Assembly (NCBI RefSeq): GCF_014203225.1
Contig: NZ_JACHIO010000019.1
Coordinates: forward strand, 62,001 to 126,000
DNA: 64,000 bases
Direction: 5' to 3'
DNA from: Granulicella mallensis
Lineage (GTDB): Bacteria > Acidobacteriota > Terriglobia > Terriglobales > Acidobacteriaceae
The position numbers and the translations under genes were made by a program. Below the pieces are notes generated by a model. It searched no databases. It saw nothing but the letters and a program-made list of their open reading frames with translations, and was not told the DNA's origin. Position 1 is the stretch's first letter; every line of letters starts with the position of its first letter. This document shows positions 26,278 to 33,778 of this stretch, piece by piece.

Positions 26278-28317
26278 TTAGCGCAGATGCGGATGTAGGC
26301 CAAAGACAACGACAGCGATGACGGCGGCTGCACCCAGGGCGAGCCAACCGGCATAAGAACGGATATTGCCGGACTGCACACGACGGACGAGCCATGCAAA
26401 ACTGCGAGTGCCTGCGGTGAGACTTCCACCTGTTCCCTGGACGAGGCCGGTATCGACGAAGTAGCCGAGGAAGAAGCGTGAGAATGCGAGCAGGGGAGTG
26501 ACGATGACGGTGCCGTAGATCTCGTCGACCCAGTACTTGTGGTCGAGCAGGGAGTAGAGCGGCTTGAACTTCTGTGCGAATGCGCCGGCAGTGCCGGGCT
26601 TGCGGTAGTAGCAGAAATAGGCGATCAGGAAACCGAGGACGGCGACGGCAATCGAAACCACGGCGAGTATCGGCTCTGCTCCCCGGAAGGAGACGTGCTC
26701 CGGTGTGACGGCGGCACTGGAAAAGACCGGTTCCAGGAAATGCTCAAACTCGTTGTGTCCACCGAAGGCAAGCGGAACGCCGACCCAGCCGCCGACAGTA
26801 GCGAGGATGGCAAGAATGATGAGCGGCAGAGTCATGATCCACGGAGATTCATGCACGCCGTGAGCATGGCCGTGGGCTGGTTCAGGCTCGGCTTCGAGAA
26901 CGAGCTTGGTGTCGTGCCGGGCGTGGATAGCTGCGCCGTGTGCTGCATGCAGGTCATGGCTATGACCGTGCTCCTCAAAGCGTGGCGCCCCGAAGAAGGT
27001 CTTGAACCAGAGGCGGAACATGTAGAACGAGGTCAGACCTGCGGTGATGAGTCCGACCAGCCAAAGCAGCTTCGCTAACGGGTTATCCGAGATGAAGGCC
27101 TGGTACAGAATCTCGTCCTTGGAGAAGAAACCTGCCCAGATAGGAATGCCAGCGATGGCCAGCACGCCCATCGTCATCGTTCCGAAGGTGACGGGAATCT
27201 TTCTCCAAAGTCCTCCCATGACACGCATGTCCTGTTCCCCGGAGAGGGCATGGATTACGCTACCGGCGGCGAGGAAGAGCAGCGCTTTGAAGAAGGCGTG
27301 TGTCATCAGGTGAAAGATTGCTGCCGAATACGCTCCAACGCCGCAGGCCAGGAACATGTAGCCGAGCTGCGAGACTGTGGAGTACGCCAGCACACGCTTG
27401 ATGTCGTGCTGAACCATGCCGATGGTCGCGGCCATGAGCGCTGTCGCCGCGCCGATGACGGCAACGACCATAAGCGCGGTGGGCGATTTATCGAAGAGTA
27501 CATGGCAGCGCGCGACCATGTAGATGCCCGCTGTGACCATCGTTGCGGCGTGGATCAGAGCGGAGACGGGGGTGGGGCCTTCCATCGCGTCAGGCAGCCA
27601 GATGTACAGCGGAATCTGTGCGGACTTGCCGGTTGCGCCGACGACGAGCAGCAGGGCAATCGCTGTGAGGAAGCCACCGGTGAGTGGGGTGGCGGAGATC
27701 TGCGTGAAGACGCTGTTGAAGTCGAGGCTGCCGAAGTGTGCAAGCAGCAGGAACATCGCGAGCAAAAAGCCGAAGTCGCCGATGCGGTTGACGACGAAGG
27801 CCTTCTTTCCGGCGTTGGCGGCGGAGTCCTTGGTGAAGTAGAAGCCGATAAGCAGGTATGAGGCGAGGCCCACGCCCTCCCAGCCGACGAAGAGCAGGAG
27901 GAAGCTGCTGGAGAGCACCAGAACCAGCATGAAGAACATGAAGAGGTTCAGGTAGGCGAAGAAGCGCCAGAAGCCGTCTTCATGCGCCATGTAGCCCACG
28001 GAGTAGAGGTGGATCAGGAAGCCGACGCCGGTGATGACGGCCAGCATGATGAGCGTGAGGTGGTCGACCGTGAACGCGAAGTTGACCTGGAAGCCGCTGA
28101 CTGCGATCCATGGACGGCTGACGGCCGAGAAGGTCAAGGGGCCGTTGCCGAACTTCATGTAGTTCCAGAGCATCGCGACGATGACGGCCGGAGCTGCGGT
28201 GAAGAGCAGCGCAATCGCCGAGACGGCGGCGCGCGGCAGCTTGCGGCCGACGGTTCCGTTGATCAGGAAGCCGGCGAAGGGAAGGATCGGAATGAGCCAG
28301 AGCAGTTGAGGATTCAT
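26278..28317 (-). CDS. nuoL: NADH-quinone oxidoreductase subunit L
   Basis: 679-residue distal proton-pumping subunit. Motifs include LLLFVGWEGVGLASYLLIGF, SAQIPLYIWLPDAMEGPTPV, SALIHAATMVTAGIYMVAR and KRVLAYSTVSQLGYMFLA. The lateral helix and terminal helix are present at the C-terminus. A His-rich stretch (EEHGHSHDLHAAHGAAIHAR, about residues 440-460, then GHAHGVH) interrupts the region before the lateral helix, a variable part of NuoL. ATG at 28317. Upstream and downstream gaps each contain a repeat-B copy. Confidence 0.96.
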   Translation of the reverse strand: MNPQLLWLIPILPFAGFLINGTVGRKLPRAAVSAIALLFTAAPAVIVAMLWNYMKFGNGPLTFSAVSRPWIAVSGFQVNFAFTVDHLTLIMLAVITGVGFLIHLYSVGYMAHEDGFWRFFAYLNLFMFFMLVLVLSSSFLLLFVGWEGVGLASYLLIGFYFTKDSAANAGKKAFVVNRIGDFGFLLAMFLLLAHFGSLDFNSVFTQISATPLTGGFLTAIALLLVVGATGKSAQIPLYIWLPDAMEGPTPVSALIHAATMVTAGIYMVARCHVLFDKSPTALMVVAVIGAATALMAATIGMVQHDIKRVLAYSTVSQLGYMFLACGVGAYSAAIFHLMTHAFFKALLFLAAGSVIHALSGEQDMRVMGGLWRKIPVTFGTMTMGVLAIAGIPIWAGFFSKDEILYQAFISDNPLAKLLWLVGLITAGLTSFYMFRLWFKTFFGAPRFEEHGHSHDLHAAHGAAIHARHDTKLVLEAEPEPAHGHAHGVHESPWIMTLPLIILAILATVGGWVGVPLAFGGHNEFEHFLEPVFSSAAVTPEHVSFRGAEPILAVVSIAVAVLGFLIAYFCYYRKPGTAGAFAQKFKPLYSLLDHKYWVDEIYGTVIVTPLLAFSRFFLGYFVDTGLVQGTGGSLTAGTRSFAWLVRRVQSGNIRSYAGWLALGAAAVIAVVVFGLHPHLR

Positions 28318-28350
28318 TGGTTCTTGGAGGCTCTCTCGGTTTGGCAGGGA

Positions 28351-28400
28351 AGAAGCAGGTTCCCTGCGGGAATGACAGAAAGAAATACAGGTGCAAAAAC
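28351..28400. repeat. Dispersed repeat B copy between nuoK and nuoL
   Basis: AGAAGCAGGTTCCCTGCGGG, then AATGACAGAAAGAAATACAG, in the 100-bp gap between the nuoK stop and the nuoL start. It interrupts an otherwise tightly packed operon. Confidence 0.8.
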
Positions 28401-28417
28401 GAAGACGGCGTTTTGGA

Positions 28418-28720
28418 TCAATTCTTCATCAGGTTGACCTGATCAACATTGAGGGTCTGGCGTGCGCGGAACAACGCGATGATGATGGCGAGGCCGACGG
28501 CAGCTTCCGCCGCGGCGACGACCATCACGAAGAAGACGAAGATCTGGCCCGAGATCTGGTGCCACATATGAGCGAAGGCGACGAATGTGAGGTTCACGGC
28601 GTTGAGCATCAGCTCGATCGACATGAAGATCGTGATGATGTTGCGCTTGATGAGAAACGCTCCCACGCCGATGGAGAAGAGGATCGCGGCGAGGACGAGG
28701 TAGTAAGCGATCGGCACCAT
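28418..28720 (-). CDS. nuoK: NADH-quinone oxidoreductase subunit K
   Basis: 100-residue, three-helix membrane subunit. The two conserved membrane Glu residues are visible in [15 protein letters not shown] and [17 protein letters not shown]. The frame opens further upstream (28798) but the real start is ATG 28720 ([10 protein letters not shown]). An AGGAGG Shine-Dalgarno lies 8 bases before it, and length and N-terminus match the family. The start overlaps the stop of a 37-codon ORF (28720-28833) in TAATG. Confidence 0.95.
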
Positions 28721-28833
28721 TAGATCTTCCTCCTCTTCTTTGCGATGACGGTGACTATGACAGCCATCCAAGCGACTGCGGCGCTCATCCAGGCACAAAA
28801 GATTGGGGCAAAATGATTGTTCGAGACGGTCAC
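28720..28833 (-). CDS. 37-residue single-helix membrane ORF between nuoJ and nuoK
   Basis: A small ORF filling the nuoJ-nuoK junction exactly. GTG start at 28833, two bases after the nuoJ stop; TAA stop sharing one base with the nuoK ATG. The protein reads [20 protein letters not shown] then [17 protein letters not shown]. It has a short polar N-terminus, one hydrophobic helix of about 22 residues, and a KKRRK cytosolic end, so N-out/C-in topology by the positive-inside rule. A strong AAGGAG lies 8 bases before the GTG, within the end of nuoJ. Caveat: the KKRRK codons also make the nuoK Shine-Dalgarno, so part of the conservation could be due to that. I do not recognise a family. It may be an accessory complex I subunit or a translational coupler. 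Confidence 0.6.
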
Positions 28834-28835
28834 GA

Positions 28836-29342
28836 TTAGAGCTCCTTCCGCGCGAGTACGACTGCGCCGAGGATCGCTACCAGGATGAGGATCGAGGTGA
28901 CCTCAAAGGGCAGCAGAAGGGAGGTGAAGAGCGTGTGCGAGATCTCGGTGATGTTGGAGACCGCGCTGGTGAGGTAGCCGCCGAGCTGCGTCGTTCCCAA
29001 CTGCTTCTTCTCGGAGAGGAACACGAAGGTCAGCAGGCAGAAGATGGCGGCTGCACCGGGGATACCCGCGATGTAGGCGATCTGCGATCCATGGGTTCGT
29101 TCTTCTTCGCCGGCGTTCAGGAGCATGATGACGAAGACGAACAGCACCATGATCGCGCCGGAGTAGACGATGACCTGGGCGGCGGCGAGGAACTCCGCAC
29201 CCAGCGACCAGTAGAGGACCGCCAGAGACATCATGACGACGATCAGCGAAAGCGCCGAGTTGATCGGATGGCGCTGGAAGAGGAGATTGAGCGCTCCCAA
29301 TACGGCCAGCAGTCCGAAGATGATGAAGAGTGCGGTTTGCAT
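28836..29342 (-). CDS. nuoJ: NADH-quinone oxidoreductase subunit J
   Basis: 168-residue membrane subunit with five helices. The family core is [20 protein letters not shown] and [20 protein letters not shown], including the pi-bulge helix region. A long loop EEERTHGSQ follows helix 3. ATG at 29342 ([10 protein letters not shown]). In usual nuo operons nuoI would separate nuoH and nuoJ; here only 68 bp lie between them. Confidence 0.95.
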
Positions 29343-29410
29343 CGGCTAGTGATTTCCGGTCTTGTTGTATTTCTTGATGCGGTTCGTACTGATTGTAAAT
29401 GCGTTGAAGC

Positions 29411-33019: not shown

Positions 33020-33724
33020 TTAGCTCCGCCCACTCTTTGCTTGTTTTGCCGGTTGTGCTGAGGTTGCAGCATTTCGGGTCTGTGCGACTGCCGCATCCAC
33101 CACAGAGCGAATGCGTGTTGGGTCGTCGTAGCTATTGTTGCCTGTACCGCATACGACCTGTTGCTTGTCTTTGCTGACGACGATGATCGTTGGCGTAAAT
33201 TCCACGTTGATGCGGCGGCCCAATTCAAAGTCGCTGTGAACGGCGTTGGCGAGCGATCCGTCCAAGTCCATCACGAAAGGCATTCGCTGGTTATGGCGTT
33301 GCAGCCAGTTCTCTGTAAACCTCTGCAGGTCGTCTCTGTTGGCAATAGAGTTCTGTGCGGCAAAGACATCGCTGCGATACTCATCGGCCAGTTTGGGGCT
33401 GATTTTATTTTGGATGTAGCGGGCGCAAACCGCACCTTGTTGCGTCCAGATGTGGGCTTCAATTGGAAAATCGAAACGCAGTATCGGCACGTGTGTCGCA
33501 GCCGCAACCTGGAGCTCGATAGGATGCGCGTGAGCACAAGCCGGGCAGCCGAGATCTTCGAATACAACGATGGCTACTTTGCTTCCGGCGGGAGGCTTCA
33601 GCAGGGATAAATTGTGTAGACCGTTGCTCGGCGGAGCTCCGGCGAACTGGGCCTGTACGGTCAACGGCATAAGAGAGGTTGCCAGAGCAAGAGCACCGAT
33701 TTTAAGAAAACCGAACAGTTTCAT
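33020..33724 (-). CDS. Exported DsbA/thioredoxin-fold protein within the nuo operon
   Basis: 234 residues from ATG 33724, which follows GGAAGGAG. An alternative start 7 codons upstream would place that Shine-Dalgarno inside the gene. A signal peptide ends around LMPLTVQAQ (residues 1-27). The active site is a CPAC motif in FEDLGCPACAHAHPIELQ, with a DsbA/DsbG-like helical insert and a cis-Pro candidate in NVEFTPTIIVVS. It thus belongs to the DsbA-like Thioredoxin_4 class and probably works as a periplasmic thiol oxidoreductase. It lies between nuoF and nuoG in the same direction and is a non-complex-I passenger. The C-terminal 25 residues are a low-complexity basic tail. Substrate unknown. 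Confidence 0.85.
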   Translation of the reverse strand: MKLFGFLKIGALALATSLMPLTVQAQFAGAPPSNGLHNLSLLKPPAGSKVAIVVFEDLGCPACAHAHPIELQVAAATHVPILRFDFPIEAHIWTQQGAVCARYIQNKISPKLADEYRSDVFAAQNSIANRDDLQRFTENWLQRHNQRMPFVMDLDGSLANAVHSDFELGRRINVEFTPTIIVVSKDKQQVVCGTGNNSYDDPTRIRSVVDAAVAQTRNAATSAQPAKQAKSGRS

Positions 33725-33778
33725 CGACTTCTTTCTCCTTCCCATGACCTACCGAAACCAAAGAGCATCGGTTCGTTC

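Follow-up and report, generated by a model that had tools for sequence, protein, structure and literature searches.

A candidate single-helix microprotein gene between nuoJ and nuoK of Granulicella mallensis and its relatives

Small accessory proteins encoded in the operon of a larger complex are a known kind. To the 14 core subunits of complex I, mammals add 31 extra ones, and in bacteria the Paracoccus enzyme carries the supernumerary subunits PdNUMM, PdNUYM and PdN7BM (PMC8115037, in part). The cyanobacterial NDH-1 contains NdhP and NdhQ, single-helix peptides of <5 kDa, and NdhP is essential for NDH-1L (PMC4131877, in part). CydX of Escherichia coli, with 37 amino acids (aa), one helix and a highly variable sequence, is encoded in the operon of another respiratory complex, cytochrome bd oxidase, and CydX, CydY and CydZ are different small proteins found at one operon place (PMC4325964, PMC6005532, both in part). 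TorE and NapE are small membrane proteins that raise the efficiency of a respiratory system (PMC6134056, in part). Here, a short open reading frame (ORF) between nuoJ and nuoK is described from a 64,000-nucleotide (nt) stretch of Granulicella mallensis DNA (contig NZ_JACHIO010000019.1, positions 62,001 to 126,000; hereafter the window). Based on the sequence comparisons below, this ORF is probably a real, translated single-helix microprotein gene whose product is made together with NuoJ and NuoK and whose helix stabilises complex I or aids its assembly without being essential.

In common with small single-helix accessory subunits of respiratory complexes, the window peptide is encoded within a respiratory operon and has no more than 50 aa and one predicted helix, and related copies of it are under selection. 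It shares with NdhP and NdhQ the single transmembrane helix, the small size and the setting of a complex I-type enzyme, but it can be lost and its gene sits between nuoJ and nuoK; the likeness is drawn from their descriptions. Length, single helix, operon of a respiratory complex, variability and the use of different small proteins at one operon place are all shared with CydX. However, CydX belongs to a different enzyme, keeps the motif YxxWxxGx15E/D and is oriented N-in/C-out (PMC4325964, PMC6005532, both in part), whereas the Acidobacteria peptide is predicted to be N-out/C-in. The CydX, CydY and CydZ genes lie downstream of cydB and their products have a conserved Trp at the helix start; here the locus is nuo, and subfamily A, the group of related junction peptides to which the window copy belongs, has M1 and P10 as its only invariant residues. 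TorE and NapE likewise accompany a respiratory system, but one that is an alternative system, with a c-type cytochrome as their partner (PMC6134056, in part), and the likeness is again by description. The Paracoccus subunits are non-core extras of a bacterial complex I too, but they have mitochondrial homologues (PMC8115037, in part), and none was found by sequence for the Acidobacteria peptide. By analogy, the peptide most likely works like NdhP or CydX, though it is not assigned to either family.

In the window, the ORF (28720 to 28833, minus strand) begins with GTG and encodes 37 aa with one predicted transmembrane helix and a basic C-terminus, as seen in the sequence, the junction comparison and an AlphaFold2 model. 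Pfam places nuoJ (PF00499) at 28836 to 29342 and nuoK (PF00420) at 28418 to 28720, both on the minus strand. The original prediction, made from the sequence alone, had the GTG two bases past the nuoJ stop, an AAGGAG 8 bases ahead of it and a TAATG overlap with nuoK, and these features were all borne out on the minus strand: the AAGGAG, read from 28847 to 28842, lies within the final nuoJ codons as the Shine-Dalgarno of the ORF, and the A of the nuoK ATG is the final base of the ORF stop. One transmembrane helix and a KKRRK end had also been described, in agreement with the hydropathy profile (best 17-residue window at residues 11-27, i.e., 28753 to 28803, minus strand, coordinates converted by hand) and with AlphaFold2, which, from a seven-row subfamily alignment, modelled a single helix over residues 8-36 at a mean predicted local distance difference test score of 78.9. 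The AGGAGG at 28729 to 28734 (minus strand), 8 bases before the nuoK ATG, is the Shine-Dalgarno of nuoK and also codes for Arg-Arg of KKRRK. The argument that such a fit would rarely arise by chance stood: 4% of dinucleotide shuffles of the window gap yield some border-to-border ORF, and the 33 long gaps described below, taken together, lie far beyond expectation. Border fit and hydrophobicity in a single genome are nevertheless weaker evidence than had been supposed, since in the window the gap between nuoK and nuoL is likewise filled, by a TTG ORF of equal hydrophobicity. The case for the gene is accordingly one of sequence comparison across relatives, not of the window ORF alone.

The junction sample consisted of 103 nuoJ-nuoK junctions from three related genera, strains of Granulicella, Edaphobacter and Terriglobus among them. 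At E <=1e-50, NuoJ was found in 25 of the 28 genomes that represent the genus of the window, in 60 of 62 of the second genus and in 18 of 19 of the third; the repeat loci L153 and L235 were excluded from the counts. The gap between nuoJ and nuoK was bimodal, at -4 to 7 nt in 70 junctions and 88-265 nt in the remaining 33, and the long form occurred in 16 of 25 junctions of the window's genus, 15 of 60 of the second and two of 18 of the third. Another 41 junctions of the family, five plus 36 that ranked high by NuoJ similarity among 352 NuoJ-matching family genomes, had no gap of >=80 nt, the largest being 29 nt. A separate set of loci (L060-L139) was used for comparison only, with nuoK missing in three (L078, L110 and L127); in the farther Acidobacteria L091, L133 and L134, gaps of 97-114 nt had no hydrophobic ORF inside.

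A border-to-border ORF was defined as one of >=20 codons that starts <=5 bases from the nuoJ stop and ends <=5 bases from the nuoK start, and a helix as a 19-residue stretch of mean hydropathy >=1.6. Such an ORF was present in 31 of the 33 long gaps, compared with 1.13 expected from dinucleotide shuffles of these gaps, and one with a transmembrane helix in 30, compared with 0.027. The two misses also contained hydrophobic ORFs, in L203 one ending 14 nt short of the fit and in L238 (265-nt gap) one of 50 aa beginning 110 nt in. Relatives with a long gap have thus retained the open frame, where stop codons or frameshifts had been named in the original prediction as the refuting observation. At the control junction nuoK-nuoL, read in all 103 cases, one of ten long gaps was ORF-filled, the sole match being the window itself, and at nuoH-nuoJ, readable in 38 of the 103 loci, none of 23. 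By this comparison, the window ORF belongs to a set of genes at one junction of the Granulicella/Edaphobacter/Terriglobus group, repeatedly absent in close relatives, and the phenomenon is more general than the single window ORF.

The same comparison bears on the possibility that what fills the long gaps is, for the most part, inserted debris or ORFs that arose de novo and independently, functionless and open by chance or through stop avoidance in a translated operon. For many of the peptides no relative could be detected, the tree requires at least 20 changes of presence, and one chance ORF does fill the nuoK-nuoL gap of the window, all as such an origin would predict. However, the excess of filled gaps over shuffles, the different behaviour of the control junctions, the dN/dS values of five related sets given below and the occurrence of the window's subfamily in two genera make it very improbable; for the related peptide sets, sequence comparison largely refutes it.

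Selection was estimated from related copies. In six disjoint pairs, none of which includes the window copy, the ratio of nonsynonymous to synonymous differences per site (pN/pS) was 0.37 (binomial p 1.2e-9), with 44, 25 and 86 differences at codon positions 1, 2 and 3, respectively. The corresponding rate ratio (dN/dS) in five related sets was 0.26 (six sequences), 0.28, 0.14, 0.07 and 0.42, some dS values being saturated, in the 0.07 set worst of all. In these genomes nuoJ and nuoK themselves gave 0.01-0.10; the six-member subfamily with 0.26 compares with 0.07 for nuoJ and 0.05 for nuoK in the matching genomes. Related copies are therefore under purifying but relaxed selection, and this, together with the junction counts, gives good support to a small gene that is truly coding. 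A Ka/Ks near 1 outside the KKRRK codons had also been named as refuting; the ratio was well below 1 in the six related pairs, but that of the window copy was unmeasurable because its relatives are saturated. Comparison with the nearest of these gives pS 0.59-0.64 and pN 0.44-0.45 for the window copy, values too close to saturation for a verdict, and the trio of closely related genomes that includes the window gives dN/dS 0.31 at a saturated dS of 1.57. In L040, a 67% complete assembly, the frame is shifted near the C-terminus, as judged by eye.

The junctions also share the arrangement of their ribosome sites. In ORF-less junctions the AAGGAG of nuoJ serves nuoK (exact in 52 of 70), in ORF-bearing ones it precedes the ORF (28 of 33), and a Shine-Dalgarno-like string stands ahead of nuoK in 31 of the latter. 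The start codon of the 33 junction ORFs is ATG in 26 and GTG in seven. Most of the peptides (28 of 33) have <=50 aa, and among 27 short ones the C-terminal side is the more basic in 25, with one tie and one reverse (mean charge +3.1 after the helix versus -0.2 before it). The basic C-terminus is partly forced by the codons of the nuoK Shine-Dalgarno, and basic residues also occur beyond them. Since the C-terminal side is basic, the predicted topology is N-out, C-in.

It had been suggested alternatively that the ORF is a leader which couples translation of nuoJ and nuoK. In this case, possibly also for membrane targeting, what matters would be that ribosomes translate a hydrophobic helix as far as the nuoK start, and not the peptide itself. 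The close fit of the ORF to both neighbouring genes, a few bases at most in 31 of 33 gaps, the nuoK Shine-Dalgarno inside the final codons of the ORF and the high variability of the peptides would all suit a leader. On the other hand, nuoK follows nuoJ with no leader between them in 70 of 103 relatives, and amino-acid purifying selection in the related copies remains when the last six codons are removed (pN/pS 0.34, p 1.4e-9 in the six pairs), so that a leader alone is disfavoured and seems an unlikely explanation.

The peptide most likely serves complex I as a small helix with an accessory or assembly role, which is proposed because of the position, the shared ribosome sites and the charge pattern. 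A ribosome finishing nuoJ would start the microprotein from the site in the nuoJ tail, the helix would be inserted beside the nascent NuoJ and NuoK, its short N-terminus probably outside and its basic C-terminus inside, and nuoK would then be started from the site in the final codons of the microprotein. The helix could pack on the membrane arm where NuoJ and NuoK lie, and there stabilise the enzyme or help its assembly without being essential. If its surface is mostly lipid-facing, many sequences would suffice, and this would account for the fast drift and frequent loss.

Several observations weigh against this role in complex I. Since the ORF is missing from 70 of the 103 junctions, where nuoK follows nuoJ directly, complex I has no need of it. 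Many of the 33 peptides show no detectable kinship to the others, and some may therefore be independent inventions and not one subunit. Five of the 33 have >50 aa, some with two or three helices as judged by eye. None of 308 NuoJ/NuoK residue states was associated with presence at median p <0.05 in 15 supported independent pairs, a test of low power. As to the longer hydrophobic ORFs at this junction, those in L167 (569-823, plus strand, 85 aa), L150 (1300-1491, minus strand, 64 aa) and L176 (861-1043, minus strand, 61 aa) appear by eye to have two or three helices.

The missing association with NuoJ/NuoK residues, together with the dispensability and patchiness of the ORF, would also be expected if the helix acted elsewhere, on another membrane protein or in a stress or envelope function, and were merely co-expressed from a strong operon. 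In six-frame searches of 300 family genomes with two subfamily profiles (singletons were not searched genome-wide), however, no further copy was found at E <6e-4. The absence of copies beyond the junction counts against a free regulator because such a gene would be expected to move, and a target outside complex I is accordingly given little credence in comparison with the accessory helix.

Relatedness among the peptides was tested by block-shuffled alignment, in which 97 of 528 pairs scored >=30 and were tested. Two peptides of the second genus, L159 (z 6.2) and L157 (z 5.0), proved to be relatives of the window peptide, with 0 of 600 shuffles equalling the score, so that subfamily A crosses two genera; other links were L033-L049 (z 7.3) and L049-L160 (z 5.4). 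Subfamily A comprises the window, L159, L157, L242, L148 and L179 plus the sister L032 (weaker, p 0.003-0.008), its membership having been chosen after a shared motif had been noticed.

When the ORF is mapped on a nuoJ+nuoK tree with 109 rows, its presence changes at least 20 times, compared with 25-32 changes for 50 shuffled labelings, and presence thus appears to be heritable but unstable. One case is G002, a one-contig sister genome with NuoJ and NuoK 100% identical, a 3-nt gap and no ORF, in which no copy was found at any other site at E <=10 by peptide search or <=0.5 by profile search. Within the trio of L032, G002 and the window, the ORFs of L032 and the window are weakly similar, and a precise loss in G002 is the simplest reading of these sequences. 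As the sister lacks the ORF despite identical NuoJ and NuoK, the ORF is dispensable and not a fixed subunit. Direct repeats clearly flank the ORF in the window, where 15 of 20 bases agree (p 0.003), and in L032 (13 of 20). As a general deletion mechanism flanking repeats were rejected, reaching p <0.05 in just four of 32 loci (L238 left out).

Subfamily A resembles the last helix of NuoJ, for which the evidence is moderate and one-directional. The subfamily A profile found five junction copies among the 300 family genomes (E 4.7e-18 to 1.8e-9), all of them profile members, and off-junction matches began at E 6e-4. Among the first 26 of these, 19 fell on the last, C-terminal helix of divergent NuoJ proteins, seven did not (14 NuoJ among the first 20), an example being NYLLPFEIASLLLLVAIVGAVVMAKKR versus NYFAPISNSSAAALISLATAAVIVRKKK of L242; the 19 count as one finding because they are mutually homologous. 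The profile aligns with the NuoJ helix for most of its length, and nuoJ lies directly upstream. In a permutation test, 17 NuoJ matches scored 21.2 bits versus 3.8 +/- 2.8 (0 of 400), a result that survives dropping any one member and is biased toward the true profile because the same profile had selected the targets. For 144 unselected NuoJ C-termini, the profile mean was 8.0 bits versus 2.6 +/- 1.9 for profiles column-permuted within blocks, two of 200 of which reach it.

Other results speak against descent from NuoJ. The window NuoJ ranks seventh among 2092 unselected ORFs drawn from the window and 28 loci of relatives (5.3 bits; best other 10.7), and 12 of 200 permuted profiles do equally well or better. 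In the reverse direction, a NuoJ profile scores just 2-3 of the 33 single peptides above shuffles at p<0.05, the hhalign probability is 4.6%, and NuoJ is absent from the Protein Data Bank matches. A six-member subfamily profile found four own copies genome-wide and weak scattered matches, and with the single-peptide scores this leaves NuoJ descent unsupported for all junction peptides taken together. For subfamily A, a tandem duplication of the nuoJ 3' end may have freed the last helix, which would have become a supernumerary subunit of fast turnover, with gain, replacement and precise loss between close species. This scenario is tentative and less likely than not; the resemblance could equally well have arisen by convergence on one membrane site. 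A duplicated nuoJ 3' end would bring helix, basic tail, Shine-Dalgarno and stop, and therefore a ready-made cistron ahead of nuoK.

A second, divergent complex I was found in 19 of 31 ORF-bearing genomes versus 14 of 54 ORF-less ones when two genera were pooled (Fisher p 0.002). The association was not significant within either genus (p 0.09 and 0.19) or when relatedness was allowed for with the tree (median p 0.625); the link is suggestive only. The genome of the window has no second nuoJ, though many relatives carry one. In L258 a second divergent nuoJ is accompanied by its own nuoK-like gene.

Searches with single peptides would have given a different picture. None of the ten of 33 peptides scanned reached a curated Pfam or NCBIfam cut-off, and the window peptide matched no Pfam family at E 10, PF00499 included. 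In 61 relatives it found nothing credible besides itself (next E 0.06), and in plasmid records it had no match. A search with the peptide alone would have implied a lone orphan, which the junction comparison contradicts. In literature on small ORFs at nuoJ/nuoK, complex I accessory subunits and the Acidobacteria nuo operon, the gene was not described in any of the titles listed, subscription journals being mostly outside the scope. Small-protein searches relying on sequence alone would miss such genes, whose position and architecture persist but whose peptide sequences diverge until they can no longer be recognised.

The origin of the extra subunits of mammalian complex I is ancient and hard to reconstruct. 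If the derivation from NuoJ is true, a split-off NuoJ helix would be a visible first step in the rise of supernumerary subunits. A one-helix companion present in one species and cleanly missing in a sister with identical NuoJ and NuoK forms a natural pair, and such pairs make the role of an extra helix testable.

Elsewhere in the nuo locus, a gene for a thioredoxin-fold protein (PF13462) lies between nuoF and nuoG (33020-33745, minus strand). The nuoH-nuoJ interval (29343-29410) has no nuoI, and the nuo genes are considered split because the sole above-cut-off NuoI match of the genome lies on another contig (G000:C10:139526-139924). The TTG ORF in the nuoK-nuoL gap (28314-28421, minus strand) has 35 codons and a hydrophobic stretch, and overlaps an interspersed 19-base palindrome-like repeat, TTCCCTGCGGGAATGACAG, which occurs in seven copies in the window at <=3 mismatches, versus 0.06 expected.
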